DNA of 64,000 bases, taken from Hawksworthiomyces lignivorus (Eukaryota; Ascomycota; Sordariomycetes; Ophiostomatales; Ophiostomataceae). The notes beneath the pieces are model-generated. The model was given only the letters and a program-made list of their open reading frames with translations. It was not told where the DNA came from and did no database searches. The DNA is taken from the NCBI GenBank assembly GCA_002917075.1, contig NTMA01000032.1:186001-250000 (forward strand), given 5' to 3'. Position numbers and translations under genes: made by a program. Shown in pieces: positions 30,522 through 64,000 of this stretch (the first letter of the stretch is position 1; each line of letters starts with the position of its first letter).

Positions 30522-30545
30522 TCTCGACCTCTTCCGTACCAGACC

Positions 30546-32437
30546 ATGTCGCACGAACCACCGCTTGCCAGCAACTTCTTTGGCTACGGAGCTGCTGACG
30601 AGGACGGCCAACTTACGGCACAAGGCGATGCGCTGACGGACATGGAAGTAGTGGCAGCCCTGACTGCTGGCGTCCCCGCGCCCTCCCAGGACGACGTCGC
30701 CATGATGCGCCTTTTTCAAGATTCAGCGACCCTGTTCACTGGCTTTGACAGCTTCCCGGACATCTTGAGCGCCGGCGCAGCGGTTCCTTTCGGCGCAGTG
30801 CCGGCGAACTCCGTCTTCTCATCTTTTCCTCCCAATTTCGCTCCCAATGGCCCCACCATTGGTATAGCTAGCAAGAATCTCGGGACGGGCGCAGATGCCG
30901 ATGCTATGGTCGTTACCACCGCTTCCGACAGTGAGTTTGGAGCCGGGCCACAACCCATCGCCGATCTCAATCAGTCGAACAGCACGCTGGGCGCCACTGG
31001 CGGCGGTGGCTCGGCTGGCACGCTGACCGAGTTCACGCGCCGCAAGAACTGGCCTGCCAAGATCGTAGAGGAGCTGCAAGACTTGCTGTTGATCATTGAG
31101 CCTAACTGCCGCATTCGTTTCTCTTCACCTATCATCACCGAGGTCCTCGGCTATGCGTCCGAAGAAGCCGCAGGCCAGTTGCTCTCTGATTTGGTGCACG
31201 CCGACGACCGATCCGTGTTTCTCGCCGAGCTCAACGCCTGCATCGCCAATGCAACCCCACTGCGGATGTACGTGCGGCTGCGCAAGAAGGACGGCACCTA
31301 CGCCGTTCTAGAGCTCGTGGGCCACGCACACATCGCCGCCTCACAATTCGCACCCAACCCAGCCAATCAGTCACCCTTCTGCCAAGCCGTGTTTCTGATG
31401 GCGCGGCCGTATCCGACCAAGAACGCCAGCCTGTTGGACTCCTTCCTAGAGCAAAAGATGGAGAACGAGCGGCTCCGGCGCCGCGTCGAAGACCTGCGGC
31501 GCGAAGAGGAGTCTGAGAGTCGCGACGACGAGTCGCGTGCTCAGAGTCTCAGCCAGAGCCAGAGCCAGTTCTGGCGCCAAAGCATCGACGCACGGTCCGA
31601 GATCACGCCCTCCGAAGCGCTCAGCTCCCCCGCGGCTGGCCCTAGTACTGCCACCGCAGCCTTTCTGCGCAACGGCGGCATGTTTGCGCCAGACAGCAGC
31701 TTGGCGTCGTCCATGGGGCCTTTGAACGTCACGGGCATGAGCGCTCTCGAGGCCAGCGGTGCTCTGAACAACGCGGCTCTCACCCGGGAGAACCTTGAGG
31801 GCATCGCGGCGCGCCGTCCTGACTCCCTACGCGACAAGATGGCGCGGTACGAGGGGATGGCGGGTGCGGCGGCTCCAAGCTCGGCGGCTGGCGCAAGCAA
31901 TTCCACAGCAGCCGGCGGCGCTTCCACCAACCTGAAACGGCCCAACGGCAGTAGCGGCATCGGCAATAGCCCCGCCACGCGCGCCGATGCCATTGAGATG
32001 TTCACAGGCTTGCGGTACCAGGAGGGCGAGCGCAGCAAGGGCCTGTCGACGGGCAACCGCAGTCCGCGGTTGGTTCGAGGAGACGCTGGCATCGCCTTTT
32101 CCCTCAACCGCGAGCAGCGCTCCGGCGAGAAGAAGAAGAAGATCCGGCTGGCGGAGGAGTATGTCTGCACAGACTGTGGTATGTCTTCTTTTGTTTTGCT
32201 TTTTGTGTAGTGTTTTATTTCTCATGCGCGCGCACGCTGGCAACACCACAAAGGCTAACGATCTGTCACAAAGGCACTCTGGAATCGCCTGAGTGGCGCA
32301 AGGGACCCAGCGGGCCCAAGACGCTCTGCAATGCCTGCGGCCTGCGGTGGGCCAAGAAGGAGAAGAAGGAGAAGAAGCGCAGCGCCGCGGCCATGGTCGC
32401 GGCAGGCGCCTCGTCGCCGACGCAGAACTGGAGCTGA
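30546..32437 (+). CDS. wc-2: White collar 2, GATA/PAS blue-light and clock transcription factor
   Basis: Partner of the photoreceptor WC-1 in the white-collar complex, which activates light-induced genes and, in Neurospora, the clock gene frq. Two exons, 30546-32178 and 32274-32437, join in phase to 598 residues. A PAS domain spans about residues 172-280 ([31 protein letters not shown]). A basic stretch [13 protein letters not shown] precedes a single zinc finger CTDC-X18-CNAC beginning near residue 541. The 18-residue loop is the white-collar form rather than the 17-residue loop of nitrogen GATA factors. The intron splits the finger just after CTDCG. No LOV flavin motif is present, as expected for WC-2. 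Somewhat longer than Neurospora WC-2 because of Ala/Ser-rich linkers. Confidence 0.93.
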
Positions 32438-36540: not shown

Positions 36541-38776
36541 TCATATGATGACAAGTGTTTCTTCCGCTGCACCGTTGATCCAATCCAGTCGCTCATCTTC
36601 CAAAATGAACGTCCCAAGTCGTACAAATGTGCCGCCGTCTTCTGTTTTGGTTAACATCAAACCTTCCAGGTGAGTGATCCGCAAACACCACACGGAGAAT
36701 GGCTGAAGCGGCTTTTGGCGAGGATGCGGAAGGTCCACCTGGCAGAGACCCACCATCAGCTTGCTCATGTGGCCTTCAGTGGAAGTCGTAGGGTACGGAA
36801 ATGTGTCCGCAGGTTGTTCTTCTTCCACTGTCTCGTAGAGATACTGCACCGGATCCTAGTCGGCGTCGTCCGTATTGGTCTTATCTTCGCCGAGAATCAG
36901 ACATGCCTCGCGGACCTCGCCGCACACTTTCAAGTAGCCGCCACGGACGGGCCGGACCTCACCGACCCCGGTGCTAACATTGTTCCCTCGTGCCCCACCG
37001 TCTTCAACGTCGTCTCCTTCGAATTCGATGCGCGCATCCACCACCCGGCAGTGCTGCTTCTCCCCCTGGCCGGCGTCTCCGTGCATCTGGAGAAACTCCT
37101 CGGGAAATACGACATCACCGTCAACTGCCGCCCATGACCAGGATGGGGCTCGGTATGCAGGTGTGCGATAGAGGCGAGTGGGCGTGCCCCAGAGTAGCGC
37201 GCCGGGCAGGTCATTACGCCAGAGGCCTGCGAGGTAGTGATCATCTGCGTGACGGGAGCGCGCGGCGTACCGGGCGAGGCCCGCGAGCGCCGGTAGCTTG
37301 TCCCGGCCAAAGGTGAGCCGGCGGCGGGTGAAGTCTTCGACGACGAGCGCCCACGTCACCGCCTGTTGCAGGACGCTGCCTGATTTAGCTGCTGCTGATG
37401 TTCCCGCCTCCAGTTGCGCCTTTTTGGCCAGGTCGCCCGGCAGCCGATCCACCGGCCGGGACCCGACGAGCCACATGGGTTTCGGCAGGCCCCAGAACGA
37501 CTGCTCCGGCGTGGTGCGCTGCGCGCTCTCACTGAGGCAGGCCGTCTTGCACTGCCAGCTCAGCTGCCGGGAGCCGTACGTGAGCACGCGCGGCGCCAGC
37601 AGCCCCTCCTGCAGCGTCCAGCCGCGCGTCTGCAGCGGCTCCCCGGAGTGCAGGCCGGGCGCGTCCACGTAGCGGGCGCGGACGAACACCGTTCCTTCGA
37701 TGAGCGCGGGCGCAGCGTCTGCCGCACCGCCTTTGTCAGCGGCGGCAGCTGCGGTAGCTTTGCTGACGGCGCGCAGAGGCACGCCGGCGAGGACGGGATC
37801 GTCGGCGGCGAGGCGCACAAAGCAGCCCTGGGAGCTGTCGCTCGCCGCCGCCGCCTGCAGGGTCACGACGGCGTTGCTGTAGACGTCGCACATGGTGGCC
37901 GACTCGGCTAGCCAGTCCGGCAGCGAGTCCTGCAGGATGCACTGCGCATCGACCCAGAGGCAGCGCAGGCCGAGGCGCCGCGTGATGGCCAGCGCATCGC
38001 GGATGGTGCGGCTGAGCCGAGGCTCGTCCAAGCTCACCTGGTTGCGCGCGAGACTGGCCGTCGTCAAGACGCTGTTCTGCGACGTTCCCCAGCAGTAACT
38101 CAGGGCCGCATACTGGCCCCGAAGGTCGCGCGGCGGCACGAAAACCCTCGGTCGGACTGAATCTCCGTCCCCTACGTCAATCAGACGCGTTGGCAGCGGC
38201 GTTTCGACGATCTTTGGGCAGGCGTCGTGACCATGCACGCAGTCGTGCAGCCATTGCTTGGCCAAAGCAAAGCAGGCGTCAGATGCAGTGTCACCGACGA
38301 CAGGTCGGCCATGCCAGAATGACGCTGCTGGGTTTTCTTTCAAATAAAAATAATTAGGTCACCAGACGGCAGCTCGAGTCTTATACGCTTGCAACAGGAC
38401 CTCTCTTACCGGGATGCGTGTAAAACCCTCCCAAGTTCTGGTCTCTCGAGATTGACCCCGTTCCATTGCCATCTACTGACTGACATTTCCAGTGGATGTT
38501 ATCCTCTAGCCTTGTTCGTAGCTTGCTGTGAAATATGGAGATGGCAGAATGTCCTGGGGCATCTTTGCTTGCCCATGCCCGCTTTCCTTTGCTGTCGTCC
38601 CTGTGGTGTTGAGCGTGGCTTGACGCGACCAGCTTGCAGAACCTACAACCACTCGCAGCCGAGAGCTCCAAGACTTCTGTATTTCCGTATGTCCGCAATA
38701 AGCGCTCTTCAGTCCATGGAAATTCTAAGGTAATGCCAGAACATCCTTTACAGAGAGAGGATATGGTCTCTGGCAT
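36541..38776 (-). pseudogene. HET-domain (heterokaryon incompatibility) protein with a premature stop
   Basis: HET proteins mediate cell death after fusion of incompatible strains. Exon 1 is 38776-38410 (MPETISSLCKGCSGITLEF) and exon 2 begins at 38336. The HET domain is clear: YAALSYCWGTSQNSVLTT, LGLRCLWVDAQCILQDS, DVYSNAVVTLQAA and RGWTLQEGLLAPRVLTYGSR. The frame meets TAG at 36856-36858. In exactly the same frame it continues for another 104 codons with normal HET C-terminal sequence (FSVWCLRITHLEGLMLTK, TFVRLGTFILEDERLDW) to TGA at 36541. Removing one codon change would restore about 720 residues. As it stands the product is 615 residues with the whole HET domain intact, so it might still function. 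Confidence 0.85.
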
Positions 38777-50557: not shown

Positions 50558-51698
50558 GATACGGCAACGGGCGTCCGCTATTCTAACCGAAACGCAACAA
50601 TATAAGTTACGTTAGTGTCTGTTTGAATGCGCGTTGATGCATTGTCTTGTTGGATCAGTTGTTCGACGAAAGAGAACCTATAAGGCGTCGAAGAAGAGCA
50701 AAATTACTGTGTCGAAGACGAGCCTCCAGCGTCAGATAGTCCAGTAGAGCGAAAGCCTGTCCTTGTTGATAGTTTGACAATTACATCTGGATTTTTAATA
50801 TATTATTAGTTGATTCATCAGATGGCTGAATGCGAAACACAGAATCGATTACCTTTCAAACTGAGTGAGATTGACAAACGGTCTTTACAGGTTTAAGGCC
50901 GGAGGCGCTGTTCTGCTCATCATTTTCGGTAAGCATACGCCACCTTTTTAACGTCCTCTGCAGTGAGTGGTTTGTCTCTCAGAAGAGCGAGGCAATGCAG
51001 GTTTACTTGATACATTTTCGCTATCGTCGTCACCGCTGTTCTGCTTCCCCTGCTCCTGTTGTTCAATCTGTCTACCAAACTCGTCTTCAGCTCCTTCTGT
51101 ATCCGTCAAATAATCCTTCTCTCCTCTTCATCTTCCTCTTCTTCCAAAGAAGCTTCATCTAGGGTTCCCTAGTGCCCATCGAGGTGAACTTGGAAGACGA
51201 AATTGTATCTCCGGTCTTGGAGGGACAGATGAAGAGAATGAACATCTGCTCGCTGATGCCTCTTAAGCCCCTATTGACAAAATAGCGCTGACAGGGTGCC
51301 GTGTAACATAGTGCATCTAGCCAGAAGGAATTTACTGTTCATGGACGTTGACTATTACCAAACCAATAAGCTGACCGCCGTGCCTTTTGAAACGGACTTG
51401 GTAGTTTGTGATTTTCAGGCGTACAGCCGTTGTTAGCTTTTTTCCTAGAAGGGTTTTACTAGGTGAGTAGACTTTAAATGCTAGCCATATCGCAATGTAG
51501 TAGTAGATTATTAGGCCAATCCTATGTAGAACGGAAAAGCCAGCAATACCGCACAGTACAAGAAACAATGATATACCGTTTTTTGCTGAATATAGATACC
51601 TGGCACCTTCATACCACAAATTTAAGTTATACAAAGGGACGCATAGTGTTCAGCATAGGTCGCTCTTATTTATTAAGATAACCGCTCGCCTTTTCTGT
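50558..51698. other. Gap between two convergent genes
   Basis: About 1.1 kb of AT-rich DNA with CT-rich patches at about 51050-51160. Open frames are short. No gene supported. Confidence 0.4.
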
Positions 51699-53237
51699 CT
51701 ATGCGGCTAGCCCGTCCACTTCTTTGGTTGCAATAACCGCTTCCATCTTCTCCGCCATGTTCTTAGGGATAATCACCGCGCCTTCGAGCCCGTAGTTTGT
51801 CTCGGTCACATATCTGAACGCCACCCAGGCCTGCGGCGCAATCGCGACAAACTGACACGTTATCTGGAAGATGAACTGCTTCCGGACGGACACGCCGGCG
51901 GCGGCAACGCCGAAGCCGATAGCGATACCGGCGGCCATGACGGCGCGCAGGAGTCCGGCGTAAGCGCCGAGCTTCTTGGGGTCGTTTGTCAGCGACGAGA
52001 GCAGCCACGAGAGGTAGACCGGGGCGACGGCGCCCAGCAGGTTGAAGATGACAAAGATGACAAAGAAGCCCGGAAACTGGGGACTGGTCCAGTCGTGCGC
52101 CGGATTGTTCTGCGGCTCGCCCGCGGGAATCACCGCGAACAGCCAGCCGGCCTCGCCGCCGTAGATGCCGAGGATCAAGAGGACCATGACCGCGAGGCCG
52201 GCTCGGGCGCGCTTGGGGCGGGACCAGGCGTGGTTGTCGAGGAGCACGCCGAACGAAAATGTACCCACGACCTCGATGATCGCGGCAACAAAGGTGCTGA
52301 GGCTGCGCGTGCGCGTGTTGAAGTATTTGGCTAGGAGAGAAGCGCGGCGTTAGGAAGCTGCAAGCAGATTGTATCACGGAGTCTGGGAGGTTTGAAGATT
52401 CACATACCGCTAATGCCAGGCTGCAGGATAAGCTGGAAGTCGGCCACGATCAGACAGGGCACGAGCAGCATCGCCTTGAGATCAAAGAGGCACCGCGCCA
52501 CGGCCCTGAACTCTTCCTGGAACCCCCAGTGCTTGAACTCGGCCAGGGCGGTGCCGTCCGCGCGACGCACCTGCTCGGGGCGGACGAGAAGGAGCGACGC
52601 GACCATGGCCGCCAGCATGAGGCAGACGAACGTGGCGTAGACGGCTGTCGGCACGCCAAAGGTCGACGTGGCGTGAACGTCGAGGCCCAGCACCAGGGCA
52701 CTGGCGATCACGTTGCCCAGCGCCTTCATGGCCGCCTGCGCGGCGTAAAACTTGCCCTTACTGTTCTCGTCCGAGTAGCCGAGGGCGATGTAGTTGACGC
52801 CTGCCCACAGCTGGCTGGCGCCCAGGCCCAGGACGGCGCCGGCCACGACGGGGAATGCCAGCTTGCCGGTGTGGTCAAAGTACCAGAGCCCAGCAACATA
52901 AAACGGATACGAAAATGCCCCATACTAGATCGGAGCAGATATCAGCCAACGAAGACTGAAAAAAAGTTTGTGGAATATATTCTGTACGTACAAAGATTGA
53001 CCACTTTGGCCCAAACTTGTTGATGACTGTGCCGCTAAAGAAGCCGGCAACCGCGAATACGCCATAGTTGACCGAGGAGACGATATAGCTCATCTCCACC
53101 GAGTCAGCCTTGCCACCACCGGCACCGAGGGCCGAAATGGCCACGTAGATGCCCACAGTGCCCATAACCACAAGGCCGGCGATGAAGTTCTGCACCTGCG
53201 GCAGCGTGCGCCGAAATTTGCCCTGAGAGAGGAACAT
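51699..53237 (-). CDS. UNC93-like MFS transporter
   Basis: Three exons, 53237-52992, 52924-52408 and 52330-51699, join in phase to 464 residues starting MFLSQGKFRRTLPQVQ. The family pattern is an early helix with IAGLVVMGTVGIYVAISALG, then VSSVNYGVFAVAGFFSGTVI and NKFGPKW. LWAGVNYIALGYSDENSKGK follows, then a second half with GTFSFGVLLDNHAWSRPKRA and the C-terminal KNMAEKMEAV tail. Fungal UNC93-like carriers are ion or small-molecule transporters of largely unknown cargo. It forms a divergent pair with the esterase at 53596, with a CGG-N5-CCG site between them, so a shared control is likely. Confidence 0.87.
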
Positions 53238-53595
53238 TTTGGTGGCCGATGAGAGCGCTGTGGAAGATGTGGGAGAAAACAGGCATTGAATGTGGTTCGA
53301 CCGAGGAGAAACTTGTGAAAGACATGGGCTTATAGATGTACACAATCCGCCGGAACCGTGCCGGCCCAAGCCCGGCAGCCTTATCTTGATGGGGAATAAT
53401 ATCATGGGGAATCAAACTAGATAAGGCGGGACGAGTTGGAGATATTTTAGGGCGGCGACGGAATTTCCGAAATTTGTCCTGATAACGATTAGCACGCCGA
53501 GCATTTAACTACGACCAAACACAACCGTATAAACCGAAGAAGATTAGCTATAGCAGCACACCAGACTACGTATCGCTTCTGTCATCACACTCAAA
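53238..53595. promoter_or_regulatory. Divergent promoter: UNC93-like transporter / HSL-type esterase
   Basis: 358 bases between start codons, with one CGG-N5-CCG inverted repeat at 53459-53469 (222 bases from the transporter ATG and 127 from the esterase ATG). Confidence 0.6.
53459..53469. promoter_or_regulatory. Putative Zn2Cys6 site, CGG-N5-CCG
   Basis: CGGAATTTCCG, an inverted repeat of CGG triplets with a 5-base A/T spacer. Same architecture as sites at 57300, 57399 and 60021. Binding is inferred. Confidence 0.5.
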
Positions 53596-54820
53596 ATGGT
53601 TAAGACACACTTAGGCCCTGTCATCGAGCAGCCGCTTTTGAACAGCATCCCGGCCAGCCTGCTTGCTCGTTTTGATCCCGTTTATGTCGAGTACTACAAC
53701 AAGTATAATGCTGGCCGTTTGGCCACCCACCAAGTTCCCATCGAGGCCTACCGCAAAGACCCTCTGAGGTTTACTGTTAGCTACGGGCGAGAATGTGTCG
53801 ATGCTGGCGACATCATCATCACCGAGCAGAAATGCCCCGTGGACGGCGCCGAAATCGCCATCCGAATCTTCCAGCCCAGCGCTGCAGCTGCTGGGCAGAA
53901 GCCGCGGCCTGCCTATGTCAATTTCCACGGAGGCGGCTGGGTATTCGGAGGCCTTGCTACGGACAATGACTTCTGCAAGCGGCTCGTTCATAGTCTTGGA
54001 TGTGTGGCTTTTGACATCGACTACCGTCTGTCGCCCGAGAACAAATTCCCCATCCCCGTTGAAGACTCATGGACCGCATTCAACTGGGTGAGGAGGATAC
54101 TTGTGCAAAAGCTCGGCAAAAAAAAAAAAGATATATAAAAGCTAATAGCTAATTCTTGGCAGATTCGCGATCACAAAGCAGCCGAATTCAACCTGGACCT
54201 GAACAGGGTCGCAATCGGCGGATGCTCGGCAGGAGGACACCTGAGCGCGGTGATTGCGCACATGTGTCGCGACGCAGAGATTCCCCTGGCCCTCCAGCTT
54301 CTTGGAGTGCCCGTCTGCGACATGCACATCTTTAGTCCCACAGGCCAGCTGCTGCCTGACTGCCCGTACGAATCGTACCGCGAAATGTACCACACGCAGC
54401 CGCTGCCGACAGAGCGGATGGAATATTTCCACAACAAGTTTCTTGGCTGCCCCCGGCCAGAAGAGCTGGACAATGTGAGCGAGCCGTCCCCATCAAGCCT
54501 CGTGCCAGCGCTCTGCATTTGCTAATTTCCTTTTTTCTCTGCAGAACTGGAAGGTGTCGCCGATCAAGGCCCCCAACTTTTCAGGCCTGGCGCCAGCGCT
54601 GGTCGTCACCGCAGAGATGGATGTGCTGCGCGACGAGGGCGAAGCCTATGCGCAGAAGATGAACGAGGGCGGGTCAAATGCAAGGGTGATCCGAGTCAAG
54701 GGAGCGCCTCATACTTTTATGCAGCTCGATGGCATTCTCGAGGGTGGCCGACTCTACAACCGGGAAACTATAAGTGCTCTAGCCGAGGCGTTCAGCGTTG
54801 CACCCCGAACTCTAGTATAA
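53596..54820 (+). CDS. Alpha/beta hydrolase, hormone-sensitive-lipase (GDXG) type esterase
   Basis: Three exons, all phase 0: 53596-54087, 54163-54474 and 54545-54820, giving 359 residues starting MVKTHLGPVIEQPLLN. The oxyanion hole is YVNFHGGGWVFGGLA, followed by DIDYRLSPENKFPIPVED. The nucleophile Ser186 is in IGGCSAGGHLSA, the acid Asp294 in TAEMDVLRDEGEAY and the His in KGAPHTFMQLDG near residue 324. The triad is complete. There is no signal peptide, so it is probably intracellular. It shares a promoter with the UNC93-like transporter and ends 81 bases from the convergent Zn2Cys6 gene. Confidence 0.92.
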
Positions 54821-54901
54821 TAGGCATTGTTGCTGTTATATTTGTATGTATTGTGTTTCTTGTACTTTAGCAAAAAGGCGATAGATTAAACAGTTAAGTG
54901 G

Positions 54902-57160
54902 TCAAGACCACGGCCCAGCAATGCTGCCATTCATGAACCCGGTTTCCCCGTTTGTGATCCAGTAAGATTGCGACGGCGTTGCGGCCAGGCCGTCCATGCC
55001 GCTGAACCAGGGAAACGACATCTCGTACTCGGCAGCCGGAGGCTGGTCGTCAGCAGCCACGTAGCCAGACCCTGAGCCCTGATTTTCCACTGCAGCAAGC
55101 GGAGCGCTGAGACTAGGGTCCGACGACGGGCCCTCCCCGACCGACTGCTCTAGCGCCGCAAGCCAGCTGTCGAAGTTGAACGTCTCCCGGAGATGCGCAT
55201 CCCGCGTCTCGCGGTCCTGCTGGCTGATCTGCCGCACATAGTTCATGATACCATCCTTAATCTCGTGGAGGTTCATAGACGACGGGTTGCAGTTTGGGTC
55301 AGACCACGACTTCTTCGTGAGCGTGTTGAGTTTGTAGTAGAGGGACACCTGCCGAATCTAGCCACGTTGGACTGCGTTAGCAGGTGAAGCCGCTCGATTC
55401 CGTCCGGAAGGGGGGGGGGGGGCTGCTACTCACCCAGTGAATGGATAAGCTCCAGCGCTGGCCAATGTCGTTGAAGCCCTCCATATCTTGGCGCAGATAC
55501 TGCCTGCTGGACGCCTGAGTCACAACATCGCGCATGCTCTCCCAGCTGAACACCGCATACGCCACATGGATGCTGGCAGCGGTGAGCAGCCCGAGGCCGG
55601 GAATGGGGTATGCCGAGGCAGACAGGCCCCGGCTCTTCATGATGCGGTAGAGGTCGGAGATAGCATTGGCGCTCTCGATCATGTCGACGGCGGACCGGTA
55701 CCAAAACTCAGGCGGCGGCGGCACGTCTGTGCGCGTCAGGACCGGCCCATCGCAGGGGCCGTTCCGCGGGTCGTAGTCTCGCTTCGGGGTAAACGGCAGA
55801 TATTCCCGGTGCAGATACGCGCACGCCTGAAAATACACCATGAACATCAGCGCCCACAGCCTGCCCTGGCCAGCGGCGATGACCGAAGAGATGTTCTGCG
55901 GCACGTAGTCGTAGTATACCGGAACAGAGCTCCGCCACCGCTCCAGCGACGCATTCAGAATGCTAAAGGGCATCTCCGGCAGCCACGGCACGCGTGGGTC
56001 CAGATGTCTTCCGCCGCGCCCGTGCCAGGTCATGACGTCGGCCAGTATGTCGATGATGCGGATGGTGTGGGCGAAGACGCTCTCGTCGTTGTGGCCGTGG
56101 CCCGCGTCCGAATTTGTGCAGGCCAGCGTGCACATCGGCTTGTGGCGGGCGTAGATAAAGTCTTCGTCGGACTGCGGGAGCTGCGTCGAGATGTCGGCGG
56201 CCAGGAGGATGGCGATCCGGTCGCGGCCGTTGGCCAGGAGCCTCTCCATGCAGAAGCAGCACCAGAACGTCCGCCTCCTGATCTCGGCAAGCGTCTGCGA
56301 GTTCAGGGGCGGCGAGTTGCCCCAGTCGAGCTGGTTCGGGTTCGAGTCCTGCCGGTGGAGCTGCAGCAGCTGCGCCAGCCGCACGGCCCGCCCCAGTCGC
56401 AGCCAGCCCCGGTGCTCGGAGCCCTCGCCGATCTCGTATATGCACAGAATCAGGCAGCACTGCACATTGACGACAGAGAGCTCCTCACCAAGCTGGTCTA
56501 GCTCGCGCCGGGCTAGCTTTGCATAGCGATCGCTGATCTCCCTCGGCGATCGCGAACCGTCGGCGAACTCGGGTATGAATCTAGAGGTGGCGGATCAGTA
56601 TGTTGGAGCTGCACGCCTGCGCGCGCAAAACGTACCTTGATACGAGCGTGAGTATGCAGATCAGAAGAGGAGTGGCAAGCTGCTCTCCCACGTCATCCTC
56701 GACGAGCTGTTGTGGGGGGAGGAAGCACAGCAGAGTAGACGCATAGTTTTCGCGAAAGTAGAGGATCGCTTTCCTGCGGAGATCCTCGGATGGCAAGCCA
56801 AGCCCGTCGTCGTTGTCCAGCACGTCTTCACCGCATACGCTGATCAGCACAACTCTAACCCATGTTGTTGTGTTCAGGGGGGAGCAAGGGACCCAAACCT
56901 TGGGAAGACGGGGGAGCATCCTGGCTCGCGTCCTTGGCGCCCTGCGCGACGGGATCTGGCGGCGGATGACCCGGATATACACAGGTTCTGTTTCGGCTGG
57001 TGCAGGCTGTGCAAGACGGCCAGTTTCCGGAACACTTTGCCTTCCGCTGCCTTTCCGAATTAGACGGCACGGACTACCCGGGACGGCGGCACTGCACTCA
57101 CCTGCAAAACGTGCACGCGAGAGCAGCTCTCGGTGCCCTCCGTCGCTTTCCGTTAGCCAT
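54902..57160 (-). CDS. Zn2Cys6 transcription factor with fungal-specific TF domain
   Basis: Probable local regulator. Exons: 57160-57102 (MANGKRRRAPRAALACTFC), 57050 to about 56910, about 56854-56636, 56580-55434 and 55357-54902, about 673 residues. The first two exons rebuild the binuclear cluster, CTFC then RQRKAKCSGNWPSCTAC and SRNRTCVYP, with all six Cys. The exon 2/3 junction is uncertain: a 55-base intron with a GTCTTC donor fits the phase, but the donor is weak. The fungal TF domain is clear from ARRELDQLGEELSVVN, LILCIYEIGEGSEHRGWLRL, RRRTFWCCFCMERLLANGRD and later helices. The C-terminal 150 residues are acidic and Ser/Gly-rich, possibly activating. Intron 4 contains 13 G in a row (55410-55422). 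Confidence 0.88.
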
Positions 57161-57299
57161 AGTCCCCTGGGACGGAGATGAGGTATTTGTGCCGTGAGCA
57201 GCATCAGCCATTCTACTGTGTTCTGTGTTGGTAGGAAGTCAGGAATGGCTCCGCTCTTAGGGTCAGGCGGGAATTAACGGAAAGTTTAATAGGCGCTTT

Positions 57300-57310
57300 C
57301 GGAAATGCCG
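57300..57310. promoter_or_regulatory. Putative Zn2Cys6 site, CGG-N5-CCG
   Basis: CGGAAATGCCG, 140 bases upstream of the regulator ATG. Binding is inferred from the inverted CGG format. Confidence 0.5.
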
Positions 57311-57398
57311 TAGATATCGGCACCCGCTAAAAGTCCAACCTAAGCCAGGTACGGTACTTTGCAGGACGGCGTGGCGAACTGTTCCGACAGCATCTCGA

Positions 57399-57409
57399 CG
57401 GATTTGCCG
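57399..57409. promoter_or_regulatory. Putative Zn2Cys6 site, CGG-N5-CCG
   Basis: CGGATTTGCCG, 145 bases upstream of the aminotransferase ATG. Identical over all 11 bases to the site at 60021. Confidence 0.55.
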
Positions 57410-57553
57410 GAGCTCGTCTCTGCGCTTGTCCCCATGATAATTAAGACGGATTGACAACATTCGCGGATTTCGATTATGCATTCTATTTACCGATTCTCAG
57501 CTTTTCGTACTGTCTATCTTGCACGACTGACAAACCTCCCATAACCGATTCCG

Positions 57554-59054
57554 ATGGAAACCACATTAGTCTCACCGACCTGCAATTCTCACGCCGAGGC
57601 AGAGGTTCGCATACCACTTTCCAGCCCGCCACCATCCCTAGAAGCTGCTCTCTTGGACGCCAGAGCTGCCTACGTCGCCCGCTTGCCGAATTCCCACGCA
57701 CACTATGAAAATGCCGTCAAGTGCATGCCCGGGGGGAACACACGATCAGTCCTGTTCAACGAGCCTTTTCCCATATTTATGAAGAAGGGTCTGGGAAACC
57801 GGCTATGGGATTACGATGGAAATGAGTAGGCGTATTCGTATCACGCGTTTGGAATGGGCAAGCGACGGACACTGATGTGCGGTACAGATACATCGACTTC
57901 GTGGGAGAGCTCTCAGCGGGCCTCTACGGCCACTCGCACCCTCTCCTCAAGCAGACGCTGCTATCTACCTATGACACGGTCGGTGTGAACCTAGGGGCGA
58001 CTACCGCGGAGGAAGTGCGGTTTGCCGATCTCCTATGCAAGCGGTTTCCCAGCGTAGAACAAGTCCGGTTCTGCAATTCCGGGACGGAGGCGAACATCTA
58101 CGCCCTGAGCATTGCTAAATACGTCACCGGCAAGAGAAAGGTGATCTGCTTCGAAGGCGGATACCACGGCGGTGTTCTCGGCTTTGGCCACGGCATTGCT
58201 CCCAACGTGGTCGACCGGGACGACTGGGTCCTGGGTACATACAACGACGTGGCAGGGGCCAAGCATCTGATAGAAGACACCTTGGATGTAGCCGCGGTCA
58301 TCGTCGAGGGCGTGCAGGGCGCGGGCGGCTGCATTCCCGCGACGGTAGAATTTCTACAAGCTATTCAGGACTCGGCAGCAAAGGTTTCTTGAGACTCCCC
58401 GCCTCCATTTGCTCGCGCCGGAACTTGTCTAACTGGTCTCAGAGCGGTATCATTTTTATACTTGACGAAGTCATGACATCCCGCCTCCATGCCGGCGGCC
58501 TGCAGAGCAAGTACTCGCTCAGCCCCGACCTGACGGCTCTTGGCAAGTATCTCGGCGGCGGCATGGCCTTTGGTGCCTTTGGCGGCCGGAGAGATCTCCT
58601 GGCCGCATACGACCCGAGAGCCGCAGGCAGTCTTCCTCATTCTGGAACATTCAACAACAACACGCTGGCAATGACCTGCGGCTTCGTCGGCATCTCCGAG
58701 ATCTATACGCCTGATGTCGCATCCAAGCACAACGCCCTCGGCGACTATTTCCGCGAGCGGCTGCAGGGGATCGCCAAGGGGACCAAGCTGGTGGTCACAG
58801 GCGTCGGCGCCGTGCTGACAATCCACTTCCTCTCGAACGGCAAGGCGCACTCGAATGCACACGACCTCAGATGCTACGACATGCCAGATCTGAAAAAGCT
58901 CTTCTGGTATTGGTGTCTGAGCAACGGCTTCTGGGTGACAGAGCGCGGCATGCTCAGCGTCATCCTGGGCACGACTCAGCAGGAATTGGACCGCTTTGTT
59001 GACATAGTGGCTCAGTTTATTTTAAAGTTCTCGACGCTGCTGATTGTGGAGTAG
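57554..59054 (+). CDS. Class III aminotransferase, glutamate-1-semialdehyde aminomutase-like
   Basis: PLP-dependent enzyme moving an amino group within or between small molecules. Three exons, 57554-57825, 57888-58383 and 58443-59054, join in phase to 459 residues starting METTLVSPTCNSHAEA. The donor after DSAAK is a weak GTTTCT. Family motifs are VKCMPGGNTRSVLF, LWDYDGNEYIDFVGELSAGL and VRFCNSGTEANIYALSIAK (cofactor phosphate). ICFEGGYHGGVLGF, FILDEVMTSRL and LTALGKYLGGGMAFGAFGG follow; the last holds the Schiff-base Lys291. Fungi make haem precursors by ALA synthase and do not need GSA aminomutase, so this must use another substrate. Bacterial beta-amino-acid aminotransferases are the closest alternative reading. 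Confidence 0.9.
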
Positions 59055-59278
59055 TTTGAACTGCTCCCAGCTAAATATGGGCGATAAAATCAGGACTGTG
59101 ACTAGATTTACATAGCTACATAGCGAATATCAGAGTGTTTGTGCCAATATTTACACAGAGGCTATGTATCTGCAACGAGAAGTCTATTGTACGCAGAAGT
59201 ATGTGCAGAAGTGTATATTCTAGTTCCTACAGTCTTGAGCCAATAGCTAAAAAGACGACCGTCTTTGCTGCTCTGAGC

Positions 59279-59820
59279 CTATGCCTCTTCGCCGAGCTTC
59301 TCCCATGTTAGGACTGCCGTTGCCTTGTCGCCACTCTGTAGAATATGGTCAGCTTGTCTGGCTTAGCACCGCCACGAATAATTCAACTTACCGGTAACAC
59401 AAAATGCTGCACTGGGCGCAGTGTCAACAACGGCTGGCCCTCCTCATGTCCCATCTCAACTCGTCTGACCTGCTCCCCTCCGACCCAATTTGGATCCAGG
59501 GCAATAACAACTCGAGTGCTGAGCAGATCATGCTCGCCGTCTTTCAGGAGCTGAAATCGGCCACTGTACGTCGTCATGGGCCGTGCGACGCGGAGGACCT
59601 CCTCGTCGGTAGCTCGATGCCAGGCAGATTCTTTTGTTGGCGAAATGACGGTGGGATGAGTAACTAGAATAGACATATATCTGTCTGCTGTGAAGACTAT
59701 ACGTCCAAGAGGGGAGGCGCCGGCCAGCTGAACCACAGATGTTTCGGATCCCGTTACAACGGTCATATCATAACTTCGCAGCTTCCGGGTGCCAACTAGG
59801 TCGCCTAGAGTAACATTCAT
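59279..59820 (-). CDS. Lipocalin-like domain protein
   Basis: Two phase-0 exons, 59820-59392 and 59335-59279, give 161 residues starting MNVTLGDLVGTRKLRSYD. The pattern of a short N-terminal helix with LVGTRKL, then GRIVFTADRYMSILV, TTYSGRFQLL and RVVIALDPNWVGGEQVRRVE, fits the lipocalin-like (PF13924-type) family. The C-terminal strand LTWEKLGEE lies in exon 2 and completes the small barrel. Members are small cytosolic proteins often found next to oxidoreductases and synthases in microbial metabolic clusters; a few bind or cyclise intermediates. It shares its promoter, with a CGG-N5-CCG site, with the carboxylesterase. Confidence 0.78.
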
Positions 59821-60150
59821 TTTGACTAGCTTGAGCTATGAGCCGCAGAATTCATAGTTGAGTCAGAGAATCATAGATAAAGGGCAATCAATTTTGTCCT
59901 TTTTTAACTGCGTTATAGTAGATGCGTAAGTTCAGTGTGGCATCGGCTTTTTTTGGGGGGGTTGGGTTTGGTTGACGGCCATATTATTTTAAACTTGCCG
60001 TTAGATACCGGTTCTCTGCACGGATTTGCCGACGTGAGCAACACGACGGCTAGCGCAGCATCTGACATTTATTTGTTTATGATATCTCCTGCAAGTTGGC
60101 TTGGCCCAATCAATTCTTTTGCGTCAACTTTGCTTCATCTACAGGGCAAA
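59821..60150. promoter_or_regulatory. Divergent promoter: lipocalin-like / carboxylesterase
   Basis: 330 bases between start codons with one CGG-N5-CCG site at 60021-60031 (201 bases from the lipocalin ATG, 120 from the esterase ATG). An open frame from 59935 runs into the esterase but starts with GTG, so it is not used as coding. Confidence 0.6.
60021..60031. promoter_or_regulatory. Putative Zn2Cys6 site, CGG-N5-CCG
   Basis: CGGATTTGCCG, the same 11 bases as the site at 57399. Confidence 0.55.
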
Positions 60151-61853
60151 ATGAATACCACCGGAGAGTCCGAGCCGCGCCCGGTCGTCTCGCTGCCGCA
60201 GGGGACTGTCATCGGCGTTCGAGAGCGTGGCTCCTATCCTGGATATATTGAGTCTTTCAAGGGGATTCCTTATGCCCTTCCTCCCACTGGCGATCGCCGT
60301 TTTCGGCCACCTGCAAAGCTGAGCCGGTCGTCTGGCGTCCTCGACGCTTCTCGATTTGGCCCCCGCGCCCCGGCGGCGGTTGTTATCGCGGGGCCTGACC
60401 TGGAGCAGTCTGAAGACTGCCTCACAGCCAACATTTTCCGGTCGCCTCGGGACGGCGACGAATCGCCGCTCTGGCCCGTGGCGCTCTACATCCACGGCGG
60501 CGCGTTCAACCGCGGACACGCTGCGATGCACGACACCGGGGCCATGGTCGGCTGGTCGGAGGAGCCGTTCATCGCCGTGTCCTTCGGGTACCGCATCGGC
60601 GCGCTCGGCTTTCTTCCGTCCAGGCTGAGCGCGCAGGAAGGCATCCTCAATCTGGGCCTGAAAGACCAGATCTGCATGATGGAGTGGGTGCAGGAGAACA
60701 TCCACCTCTTCGGCGGCGACAAGAACGCCGTGACGCTCATCGGTCTCTCGGCAGGGGCTCATTCGGTACGCAATGCAACAGTCGCCCCGTGTTTTGACTA
60801 ACGAGGAGAGCCTTCTGACAGATAGCACAGATAGGATACCACCTCCTGAACTACAAGGAGGGGGTGGCGCCGCTCTTCCACCGCGTCGTCATGGAGTCTG
60901 GAGCGCCCACCTCGCGCGCTGTGCGCTACCCGGACTCCCCCATTCACGAACAGCAGTTTGCAGACTTTCTGGCCGAAGTGGCCTGCCCTCGGGGGATATC
61001 TGGCGCGGAGACGCTCCAGTTTCTGCGCGCGCTCCCGGTCTCCGCCATCGCAGAGGCCCAGGCGGCCGTGTTCGGCAAGTACAGCGCCAGCCTGCGCTGG
61101 GCGTTCCAGCCTGTCATCGACGGCGAGATCATCCGGCGCCGCCCCATCGACTCGTGGCGCGAGGGCCTGTGGCACAGGGTGCCCGTCATGACCGGCTTCA
61201 CGACCAACGAGGGCTCCATGTACGTCGACAAGAACATGGCCACGGCGGCCGAGTTCCGCGGCTTCTGGAAGACGCTGCTCCCGCAGCTGAGCGACGAGGA
61301 CCTCGGCACCATCGACGGCCTCTACCCAGACCCAGCAAAGTTCAGAGACTCGAAATACCGCGAGAGCCGCCCGGGCGTCGGCCCGTCGTACAAGCGAATC
61401 GAGGCCGCGTATTCCCACTACGCCTACATCTGCCCCGTGCGGCAGACTGTCGACTTTGCCAGCAAGCACGTGCCCGTGTACCTCTACCACTGGGCTCTGG
61501 TAGGCGACACTGTGCGCGGCGCCCAGCACGGCGACAACATGTTCTACGAGACGAGACGCCCCGCGACGTGTGGCATATCACCCTCTCAGGACGAGCTATC
61601 GGCTGTTCTGCACGCATATATCGTGAGCTTCATTTGCACAGGCAGCCCGGATAGCAGCCGCTGGGGGAAGGCCGTGAGACGGCCGGCATGGCAAAAATAT
61701 ACGCCGGGCTCAGGACAGCTGATGGTGTTTGGCAAGAACAATATGGAGCTGGTAGGCGGTACGGCGGGCCCTGCTGCCGAGGTAGCTGATGATTCATGGC
61801 CGTTACGGGAGTCTGAGTTCTGGTGGAGCAAAGTAGAGATATCTCAACTATAG
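60151..61853 (+). CDS. Type B carboxylesterase
   Basis: Hydrolyses carboxylic esters; other fold members act on carbamates and lactones. Two phase-0 exons, 60151-60765 and 60831-61853, give 545 residues starting MNTTGESEPRPVVSLPQGTV. Upstream open sequence lacks this pattern. Visible motifs are SFKGIPYALPPTGDRRFRPP, SEDCLTANIF, the oxyanion region ALYIHGGAFNRG and the nucleophile Ser200 in IGLSAGAHS. The usual GESAG has Leu in place of Glu. The acid Glu is in FTTNEGSMYV near 331 and the His in GAQHGDNMFYE near 439. The acceptor CACAG|ATA gives GAHSIGYHLLNY; one nine bases earlier is also in phase. No signal peptide, so the enzyme is probably intracellular. Confidence 0.92.
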
Positions 61854-61980
61854 TAGCCCACATTATCCTATTGGCCCAGACTGCTTACAGGCTCTTCTCT
61901 TCTAGAGCTTTGTAAAGATGGTGTGGTAGAGGTCATATAAACTACCTGAGCTATATATGTGAAAACATCGCCCTGTGTCT

Positions 61981-62931
61981 CTAAGCTTCGAATTCATGCT
62001 TGTATTCCTTGACCCACTCCTCAATATTCGTTGGCGGCCTGCCTCCATACTTCTGAATATTAGCAGCGGTGTCTTTGTACACATGTCCAGTGTAGGTTGT
62101 CTCATCTTTCGGTGTTGCTGCTCGAGCCTTGAACATCTCCACGAGATCCTTCGCTATAGGTTCAGGGATGCCGGCTACTTTCACGAGAATTTCAAGACCC
62201 TCCTCGTCACCGACCGGAGTTACTTTAATATCTTTGCCGATGGCTTTGCCAATATACCCCACGACGTCCTGGAGAGGTACGAGCTTCGGCCCAACCAGGT
62301 TCACAACAGTCTCTGACCCGGCCGCCTGCGGTCCGGCGACGAGGAGCGAGCCGCACACTCTTCCAATGTCGCCCGGCGTAATCCAATCTACCGTTGCCTC
62401 TGGGTAGGCTATCTTAACATCACCCTGGCGCACCATATCTTTCCACCAGAATGAGTTGGTCGCAAAGAAGGCCGGCCGCACCGCCATGTAGCCGCCGGAC
62501 CCGAACACGTCGTCCAAGCTGACCTCGACCTGCGCGTGCGCGTACGGCACGAACTTGTCGGGCGGCATAGCACGAATGTCGCCATGGACGCTGATGCTGC
62601 TCAGAAGGACGGCATACTCGATGCCGGCGCTCCGCATGGCCTCGATGCTGGCCCGGAGGTGGTCCGGGCTGCCGCCTAGGATGACGTAAAAGAAGGCGCG
62701 CTTGGCACCCGTCTGCCGCACTGCCGCCGCCACGCTGTCGGGCTGCGTCAGGTCTGCCTGCACGCGCTCGTATCCCCCCGCGCGCTCTTCCTCGGCCGTC
62801 AGGCCAGGGATGGGCTTCTGCGGGTCGCGGAGGGCGAGGACGACCTTGGCGCCGCGCTCGGCGGCAGTGCGGGCAACGGCAGAACCGACTCCGCCCGTCG
62901 CGCCAAAGACGATGGTGGTAACGTTGGTCAT
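61981..62931 (-). CDS. NmrA-like NAD(P)-binding reductase (atypical SDR)
   Basis: Intronless, 316 residues starting MTNVTTIVFGATGGVGSAVA, a clear Rossmann GxxGxxG. VVLALRDPQKP follows, then RVQADLTQPDSVAAAV and AFFYVILGGSPDHLRASIEA, and YAVLLSSISVHGD and YMAVRPAFFATNSFWW. DWITPGDIGRVCGSLLVAG is the NmrA/HSCARG pattern of a NAD(P)-binding protein or isoflavone-reductase relative. No classical YxxxK catalytic pair is obvious. It may be an enzyme or a redox-sensing protein. It is convergent with the carboxylesterase (127 bases between stops). Its own upstream region shows no CGG-N5-CCG, so membership of the regulon is uncertain. Confidence 0.87.
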   Translation of the reverse strand: MTNVTTIVFGATGGVGSAVARTAAERGAKVVLALRDPQKPIPGLTAEEERAGGYERVQADLTQPDSVAAAVRQTGAKRAFFYVILGGSPDHLRASIEAMRSAGIEYAVLLSSISVHGDIRAMPPDKFVPYAHAQVEVSLDDVFGSGGYMAVRPAFFATNSFWWKDMVRQGDVKIAYPEATVDWITPGDIGRVCGSLLVAGPQAAGSETVVNLVGPKLVPLQDVVGYIGKAIGKDIKVTPVGDEEGLEILVKVAGIPEPIAKDLVEMFKARAATPKDETTYTGHVYKDTAANIQKYGGRPPTNIEEWVKEYKHEFEA

Positions 62932-64000
62932 TTTGAGCTTCTTGTTTAGTTTTGTGCTGTGCTCCTCGGTTGTCGATAACGCAAACGGACAAGTAAAATC
63001 AACTTTATATGCTCAATTGCAAGAGCTATGTTTGATTTTTATAATATCACGGAAAACTCTACACAGCCTGAACACGTTCAAGATATATACTCGCCAACAA
63101 GTATCCTGACACGGCGGTGCTTACTTGTTCGTACACTGCCATATTCATGGCTAAAATTCCGGCCCAATACAATCCTGCCTCGCCAAGCAAAAAAGCCCGC
63201 AAACGGAACAAAAACCAACCGATTTTGCGAGGTCCGATCTATCAGCTGATTCGAGCTTGAAGTGAAAAAGAGGACAGAAGTTGGTATAAATCCCTACAAA
63301 AAATGCCCGATTCGGTGGAACATCCTCAAGAAGCAACATCTAGAGCTGTGTGACATTCCGTCCTCCGCCGGCGGCGGCGGAAGAAGAGTGCGTCTGTCTA
63401 TTTAGATAATTGAATCAACACGTGAATGTCGGAATCCGGACCTCATGTGTTCCGTGTCGTTTGAGCAGATAAGTCAGTTCCAGATAAATTGAAATAGAGA
63501 ACATCAGCAGGTCACGCACCGTACTGCATATACGATAAATACGCTTATAAAGCGGTACCATGTCTTAAATCATGTTATCTGATCGATTTTTACCAGGGGT
63601 AATCTAAAATTTGTCGCTTGATGTGGGACTCGCGTGAAGTGGAGACTGAGTTGAGCCGCGAAAGTCGGTTGACGATGTGCTCTTTTCTAGCGATTCAGAG
63701 TACAGATAGAAGAAAATTTTCATAATTTTCGACAGATGCCAAAGCTCTGGAAACACGGTAAATATTGTAACCAAGAAGTACTACAGCGAAGGGAATATCG
63801 AGCCGGTGTTAACTGCTGCGTAAATCCCTCTAAAGTCCACATGCAAACACTCCTTTAGAGCGCTGTTGTTGTCGACAAGGGTTGAGCCTAGTTTCATTTT
63901 GCACAGGGTCAAAAAAAAGCTTTATTAAGCTACATGCTAGCAATTTTCCGTAGCACCGTAGCGTACATTCAATAACACCGTGTTTGGTCAAGGTTCGCTT
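62932..64000. other. Terminal gap, upstream of the NmrA-like gene
   Basis: About 1.1 kb, mostly AT-rich. A GC-rich patch at 63361-63380 and CGGAATCCG (N3, not N5) at 63430-63438 are present. No gene is supported before the window ends. Confidence 0.4.

Follow-up and report, generated by a model that had tools for sequence, protein, structure and literature searches.

Six neighbouring genes of Hawksworthiomyces lignivorus were found to form three head-to-head pairs, placed tail-to-tail with respect to each other, and every one of the three divergent promoters carries one or two CGG-N5-CCG inverted repeats, the middle gap holding two of the four. The sites, the arrangement of the genes and the domains of their products are present in the DNA itself, and the four sites are, with high probability, real regulatory elements. 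As the best reading of the whole locus, we propose a six-gene, probably catabolic cluster whose own Zn2Cys6 regulator binds the sites, an interpretation that we consider reasonably probable. Its core, namely the action of the regulator on its own cluster, is likely, and the extent of the regulon is unproven.

Gene arrangement of the locus

The locus lies within a window of 64,000 nucleotides, by which we mean the whole stretch of DNA that was analysed. The models of all six genes were spliced by hand, without transcripts, and returned the following features.

51699..53237, minus strand: UNC-93-like MFS transporter gene, 464 aa, two introns (52925-52991 and 52331-52407), Pfam UNC-93 at 6.6e-10 and MFS_1 at 2.9e-8
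53596..54820, plus strand: HSL-type alpha/beta hydrolase gene, 359 aa, two introns, Abhydrolase_3 at 1.9e-56, HGGGW and GCSAG motifs recognised by eye
54902..57160, minus strand: Zn2Cys6 transcription factor gene, 676 aa, four introns, Zn cluster at residues 15-47, Fungal_trans at residues 133-289
57554..59054, plus strand: class-III aminotransferase gene, 459 aa, two introns, Aminotran_3, nearest solved structures beta-transaminases
59279..59820, minus strand: Lipocalin_5 gene, 161 aa, one intron (59336-59391)
60151..61853, plus strand: type-B carboxylesterase gene, 545 aa, one intron (60766-60830), COesterase at 2.7e-89

The three divergent gaps span positions 53238-53595 (358 bp), 57161-57553 (393 bp) and 59821-60150 (330 bp). 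A previous sequence-only reading of the window had described three short divergent promoters of 358, 393 and 330 bases, and the same gaps were obtained here from the hand-spliced models. As for the lipocalin-like protein, a second copy was not found in the genome at E 0.001, nor a solved relative at E 0.1. On the right side, the cluster is followed by an NmrA-like ORF (61981-63012); since neither this ORF nor the next 20 kb contain a single copy of the 12-base site described below, the sites delimit the six genes on this contig. Elsewhere in the window, a HET-domain ORF (36856-38358) and a PAS-domain ORF (30522-32210) were observed.

The shared site and its chance expectation

The four inverted repeats, each extended to 12 bases, were located as follows.

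53458..53469, plus strand: site 1, ACGGAATTTCCG, 127 bp upstream of the hydrolase start and 222 bp upstream of the transporter start
57300..57311, minus strand: site 2, ACGGCATTTCCG (read on the minus strand), 140 bp upstream of the regulator start and 244 bp upstream of the transaminase start
57398..57409, plus strand: site 3, ACGGATTTGCCG, 239 bp upstream of the regulator start and 145 bp upstream of the transaminase start
60020..60031, plus strand: site 4, ACGGATTTGCCG, 120 bp upstream of the carboxylesterase start and 201 bp upstream of the lipocalin start

The four 11-mers initially reported at 53459, 57300, 57399 and 60021 were all found at these positions. Their description as having A as the first and T as the fourth spacer base is correct on the plus strand, but it does not correspond to the best alignment, as the site at 57300 aligns better with the others when reversed. 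With site 2 in this orientation the consensus becomes ACGG-MWTTK-CCG, with nine fixed bases, one of which lies outside the dyad. The reported absence of such a site from the other gaps was verified for the interval 51001-63990, which contains no further 12-mer within one mismatch of the consensus.

The bare CGG-N5-CCG dyad occurs 36 times in the window, compared with 19.9 occurrences expected from shuffles, and 32 of the 36 fall outside the three promoters. As the bare dyad is so frequent, it is the refined site in these gaps, and not the dyad as such, that is special. Two other origins of the shared signal were considered and rejected. Descent of the sites from a single duplicated segment is at odds with their flanking sequences, which differ among the four. 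GATA or CreA-like motifs were likewise discarded as the common signal; the three gaps contain 3, 2 and 1 GATA-like and 0, 2 and 0 CreA-like sites, respectively. With six sites in all, the GATA-like motif is above the average of the window (2.09 per kb, or about 2.3 expected), but does not stand out clearly against shuffled gaps, which contain 3.3 on average and reach six in 223 of 2000 cases, so that an input from nitrogen control is no more than conceivable.

An accidental sharing of a regulator-like dyad by the three promoters was evaluated by randomisation. Dinucleotide shuffling (20000 shuffles) returned 0.24 N5 inverted repeats expected in the three gaps, in agreement with the earlier estimate of about 0.25. 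Four or more sites in total were reached in 2 of the 20000 shuffles and at least one site in every gap in 8. When the count was opened to all 39 CGG dyad classes considered (inverted, everted and direct, with spacers of 0-12), some class reached at least four sites spanning all three gaps in 36 of 5000 shuffles. The agreement among the four spacers has a probability of about 7e-4 to 9e-4 in simulations with independent bases, decreasing to 3e-5 to 6e-5 (3 to 6 hits per 100000 draws) when one flanking base on each side is included.

A search blind to CGG was also carried out for the best ungapped 12-mer common to the three gaps, and it returned this very site, with 10 of 12 columns identical. 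This was the sole combination at 10 columns, the four runners-up at 9 columns being shifts or copies of the same sites. A score of at least 10 of 12 was obtained in 7 of 1000 shuffles. An equal three-way match is commoner in real non-coding DNA than in shuffled sequence: 81 of 3000 triplets (2.7%), or 42 of 3000 with low complexity excluded, reached the same score in a sample of 485 blocks, mostly taken from loci chosen for holding an 11-mer, from which the 21 blocks containing an 11-mer had been left out.

These 81 triplets speak for coincidence, as do the frequency of the bare dyad in the window and the fact that the pattern was picked after reading the window for many pattern kinds. Nevertheless, the top motif of the blind search is a CGG dyad and stands next to a zinc-cluster gene, this type of site occurs a fourth time, and the agreement of spacers and flanks comes on top of the three-way match, so that we regard chance as quite improbable. 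Calculations that start from the 12-mer gave 0.010 copies expected in a 6.6-kb stretch and four so close together in 0 of 20000 random placements; these figures, like the clustering itself, are circular because the consensus was built from these four sites.

The Zn2Cys6 regulator and the genomic copies of the site

The regulator encoded at the centre of the cluster possesses an intact six-cysteine binuclear zinc cluster (C-x2-C-x6-C-x6-C-x2-C-x6-C; Zn_clus at 4.7e-8, 33.4 bits against a cut-off of 21), similar to those of LAC9, GAL4 and HAP1, and a middle domain assigned to Fungal_trans (1.8e-18), which is common, but not universal, in Zn2Cys6 factors. For the second intron of the gene, three acceptors were tried and the in-frame one was kept. 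By eye, no coiled coil was seen after the zinc cluster, where the linker is proline-rich and devoid of heptads, the second intron/exon boundary being uncertain in this region. The fourth intron (55358-55433) contains a run of 13 G on the plus strand, that is C on the coding strand.

The CGG inverted repeats of GAL4, PPR1 and PUT3 have spacings of N11, N6 and N10, respectively. The system described here resembles them in having a similar zinc cluster, a CGG inverted repeat and a regulator located beside its likely targets, and a CGG inverted repeat of fixed spacing was found in the putative target promoters, as presence of sites. It differs in the five-base spacer, in an extra conserved A outside one half-site and in the TT inside. 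GAL4-type dimers also use a coiled coil, an element not seen by eye after the zinc cluster here, and this speaks against the proposed reading. The AflR site, TCG-N5-CGA, provides a second comparison, since in both cases the regulator resides in the cluster and a site with a five-base spacer is repeated through the cluster promoters. However, the half-site here is CGG and not TCG, and no polyketide or peptide synthase occurs among the ORFs scanned. The arrangement is a good example of a well-known kind, and not a new one.

According to the proposed mechanism, the regulator would bind as a dimer to the slightly asymmetric inverted repeat of the consensus, the predicted binding motif of its DNA-binding domain being ACGGMWTTKCCG. 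One dimer site would be located in the transporter/hydrolase promoter, one in the lipocalin/carboxylesterase promoter and two in the regulator/transaminase promoter. The distance of every site to either of the two start codons beside it is 120-244 bp, so that a single bound dimer could act on both genes of a pair. The presence of two sites in the middle gap suggests autoregulation. Binding, co-regulation, autoregulation and the substrate are what we infer for the locus. For the majority of fungal Zn2Cys6 regulators a binding site is not known; this locus combines a regulator with a precisely defined candidate site of 12 bases, three testable promoters and a short substrate list. If the proposal is true, the locus would also provide an example of compact bidirectional promoters that work with one or two sites apiece, and would suggest that fungi possess a route for derivatives of beta-amino acids.

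The genome contains 68 copies of the 12-mer, four of them within 6.6 kb at the cluster and 64 elsewhere, a count that is circular in that the consensus derives from the cluster sites; the reversed-string control returned 40 copies. On the 407-kb contig of the cluster (C118), the only exact copies are the cluster's four. The idea of a putative self-contained Zn2Cys6 regulon, put forward by the sequence-only reading, holds as to the sites in all three promoters and the genuine Zn2Cys6 gene in a central position, but the self-containment, given the 64 copies elsewhere, is conjectural. The surroundings of 8 of the 64 outside copies were scored by a rough hexamer measure (coding threshold 0.35), and 4 resulted to be coding and 4 non-coding.

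The outside copies also bear on the possibility that the sites are functional but bound by another Zn2Cys6 regulator, either a paralogue or a global factor, the cluster regulator acting through other sites or being itself under the control of that factor. The 64 of 68 copies lying outside the cluster and the excess of 68 over 40 for the control are in favour of it, as is a regulator on contig C135 whose zinc-cluster region is 52% identical (query residues 2-54) and which has another copy of the site at a distance of 8.9 kb. On the other hand, four of the 68 copies flank the cluster of the regulator gene itself, and chance alone would place a regulator or other homologue within 10 kb of a few of the copies: 7 of the 64 outside copies lie within this distance of one of 135 listed homologue loci, against about 4 expected. 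Relatives of the cluster genes are therefore near other copies weakly, if at all. The best other match to the regulator in the genome reaches 31% over 233 residues among the 66 of 145 candidates scored, the counts of homologues being lower bounds for this reason. Overall, we consider binding by another regulator unlikely and retain the cluster's own factor as the preferred candidate.

The looser 11-mer CGGAWWTKCCG has 147 distinct sites in the genome; of the 143 outside the cluster, the analysis covered the surroundings of 33, and of one more through locus L043. The other pairs of 11-mers (on contigs C46, C117, C116, C122 and C101) were examined as further members of the regulon and rejected after listing the surrounding ORFs; for the pairs on C46, C117, C116 and C101, no common theme was recognised by eye among the ORFs listed. 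The C122 pair belongs to a proline-metabolism gene group (C122:282900-292899) with members of the proline dehydrogenase, pyrroline-5-carboxylate (P5C) reductase, aldehyde dehydrogenase, amino-acid permease and DHDPS families. The first of its 11-mers falls in what appears to be a gap, and the other, an exact 12-mer, in a strongly coding stretch (hexamer score 0.81).

The transaminase, its paralogues and the putative pathway

The aminotransferase was compared with solved structures, and the best matches were 2yku and 6iz9 (2e-116) and the beta-phenylalanine aminotransferase 4ao9 (2e-110), all of them beta-transaminases and of bacterial origin. The match is nearly full-length, and the next class-III enzyme follows far behind at 6e-59. 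The stretches GGNTR, LGKY-GGG and RGM are common to the aminotransferase and to 2yku and 6iz9 in the alignments, and the arginines of GGNTR and RGM have a substrate role in beta-transaminases. Judged by its sequence, the enzyme is closest to beta-transaminases. It differs from the solved enzymes in being fungal and in belonging to a gene cluster with esterases, and its activity on beta-amino acids is putative. Among the NCBIfam bacterial equivalogs, the best 25 of 69 families all scored below their cut-offs.

We propose that the probable function of the six genes is the uptake and degradation of a small nitrogen compound. The cluster would import the compound, the two hydrolases would split ester or amide bonds and an amino group, perhaps that of a beta-amino acid, would be removed; the substrate of the pathway is a guess. 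A more specific version, in which a regulator of uncatalogued specificity (asymmetric site, N5 spacer, perhaps no usual coiled coil) drives the breakdown of a beta-amino acid ester or amide via three bidirectional promoters, is speculative and, taken as a whole, rather doubtful.

The six genes might instead constitute a biosynthetic cluster for the tailoring of a secondary metabolite, and this would be compatible with any reading of the sites. Biosynthetic clusters too contain a pathway regulator, a transporter, hydrolases and a lipocalin-like protein, all of which are found here, and Aldo/keto reductase, Abhydrolase_1 and NmrA-like ORFs occur nearby. However, no synthase-type core enzyme was detected among the six genes and the ten neighbouring or large ORFs scanned, and a permease or an amidase-like ORF lies beside two of the four transaminase paralogue loci. 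As judged from these companions, the uptake and breakdown of amino compounds fit better than synthesis; the biosynthetic alternative is possible, though clearly the less probable of the two.

Relatives of the transaminase were found on contigs C160, C118, C153, C57 and C19, with 39-54% identity per piece. The one on C118 belongs to a region (C118:17392-24099, of which locus L040 is a part) that contains an UNC-93-like gene related to the transporter, a weakly amidase-like ORF and the 43% identical transaminase at C118:23026. The latter is preceded by the amidase-like ORF (8e-4, below the Pfam cut-off), and the UNC-93-like relative lies 5.6 kb away. Between the amidase-like ORF and this transaminase we observed CGGTAAATCCG (L040:842), an N5 dyad one base off the 11-mer and lacking the flanking A. 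Of the other paralogue loci, L041 adjoins an amino-acid permease and L042 a haloacid-dehalogenase-like ORF, and no neighbour was identified at L039.

That the site might be promoter baggage inherited with the transaminase family was considered and rejected, the 12-mer being present in 0 of the 4 paralogue loci (L039-L042). Contigs C160, C19 and C57 have no listed copy, and on C153 the one copy is separated by 50 kb from the closer paralogue, with a distant paralogue 7.6 kb away. At L042 (C57:170345-171728), one matched piece crosses four in-frame stop codons, corresponding either to introns or to a decayed copy.

Finally, a stretch of about 4.7 kb on another contig (C151:111747-116470), with no listed copy of the 12-mer, holds a regulator relative (29%) accompanied by a carboxylesterase (34%) and by a weakly matching, distant class-III aminotransferase (27%, E 7e-4), and this trio is perhaps a recurring regulator-aminotransferase-esterase grouping.
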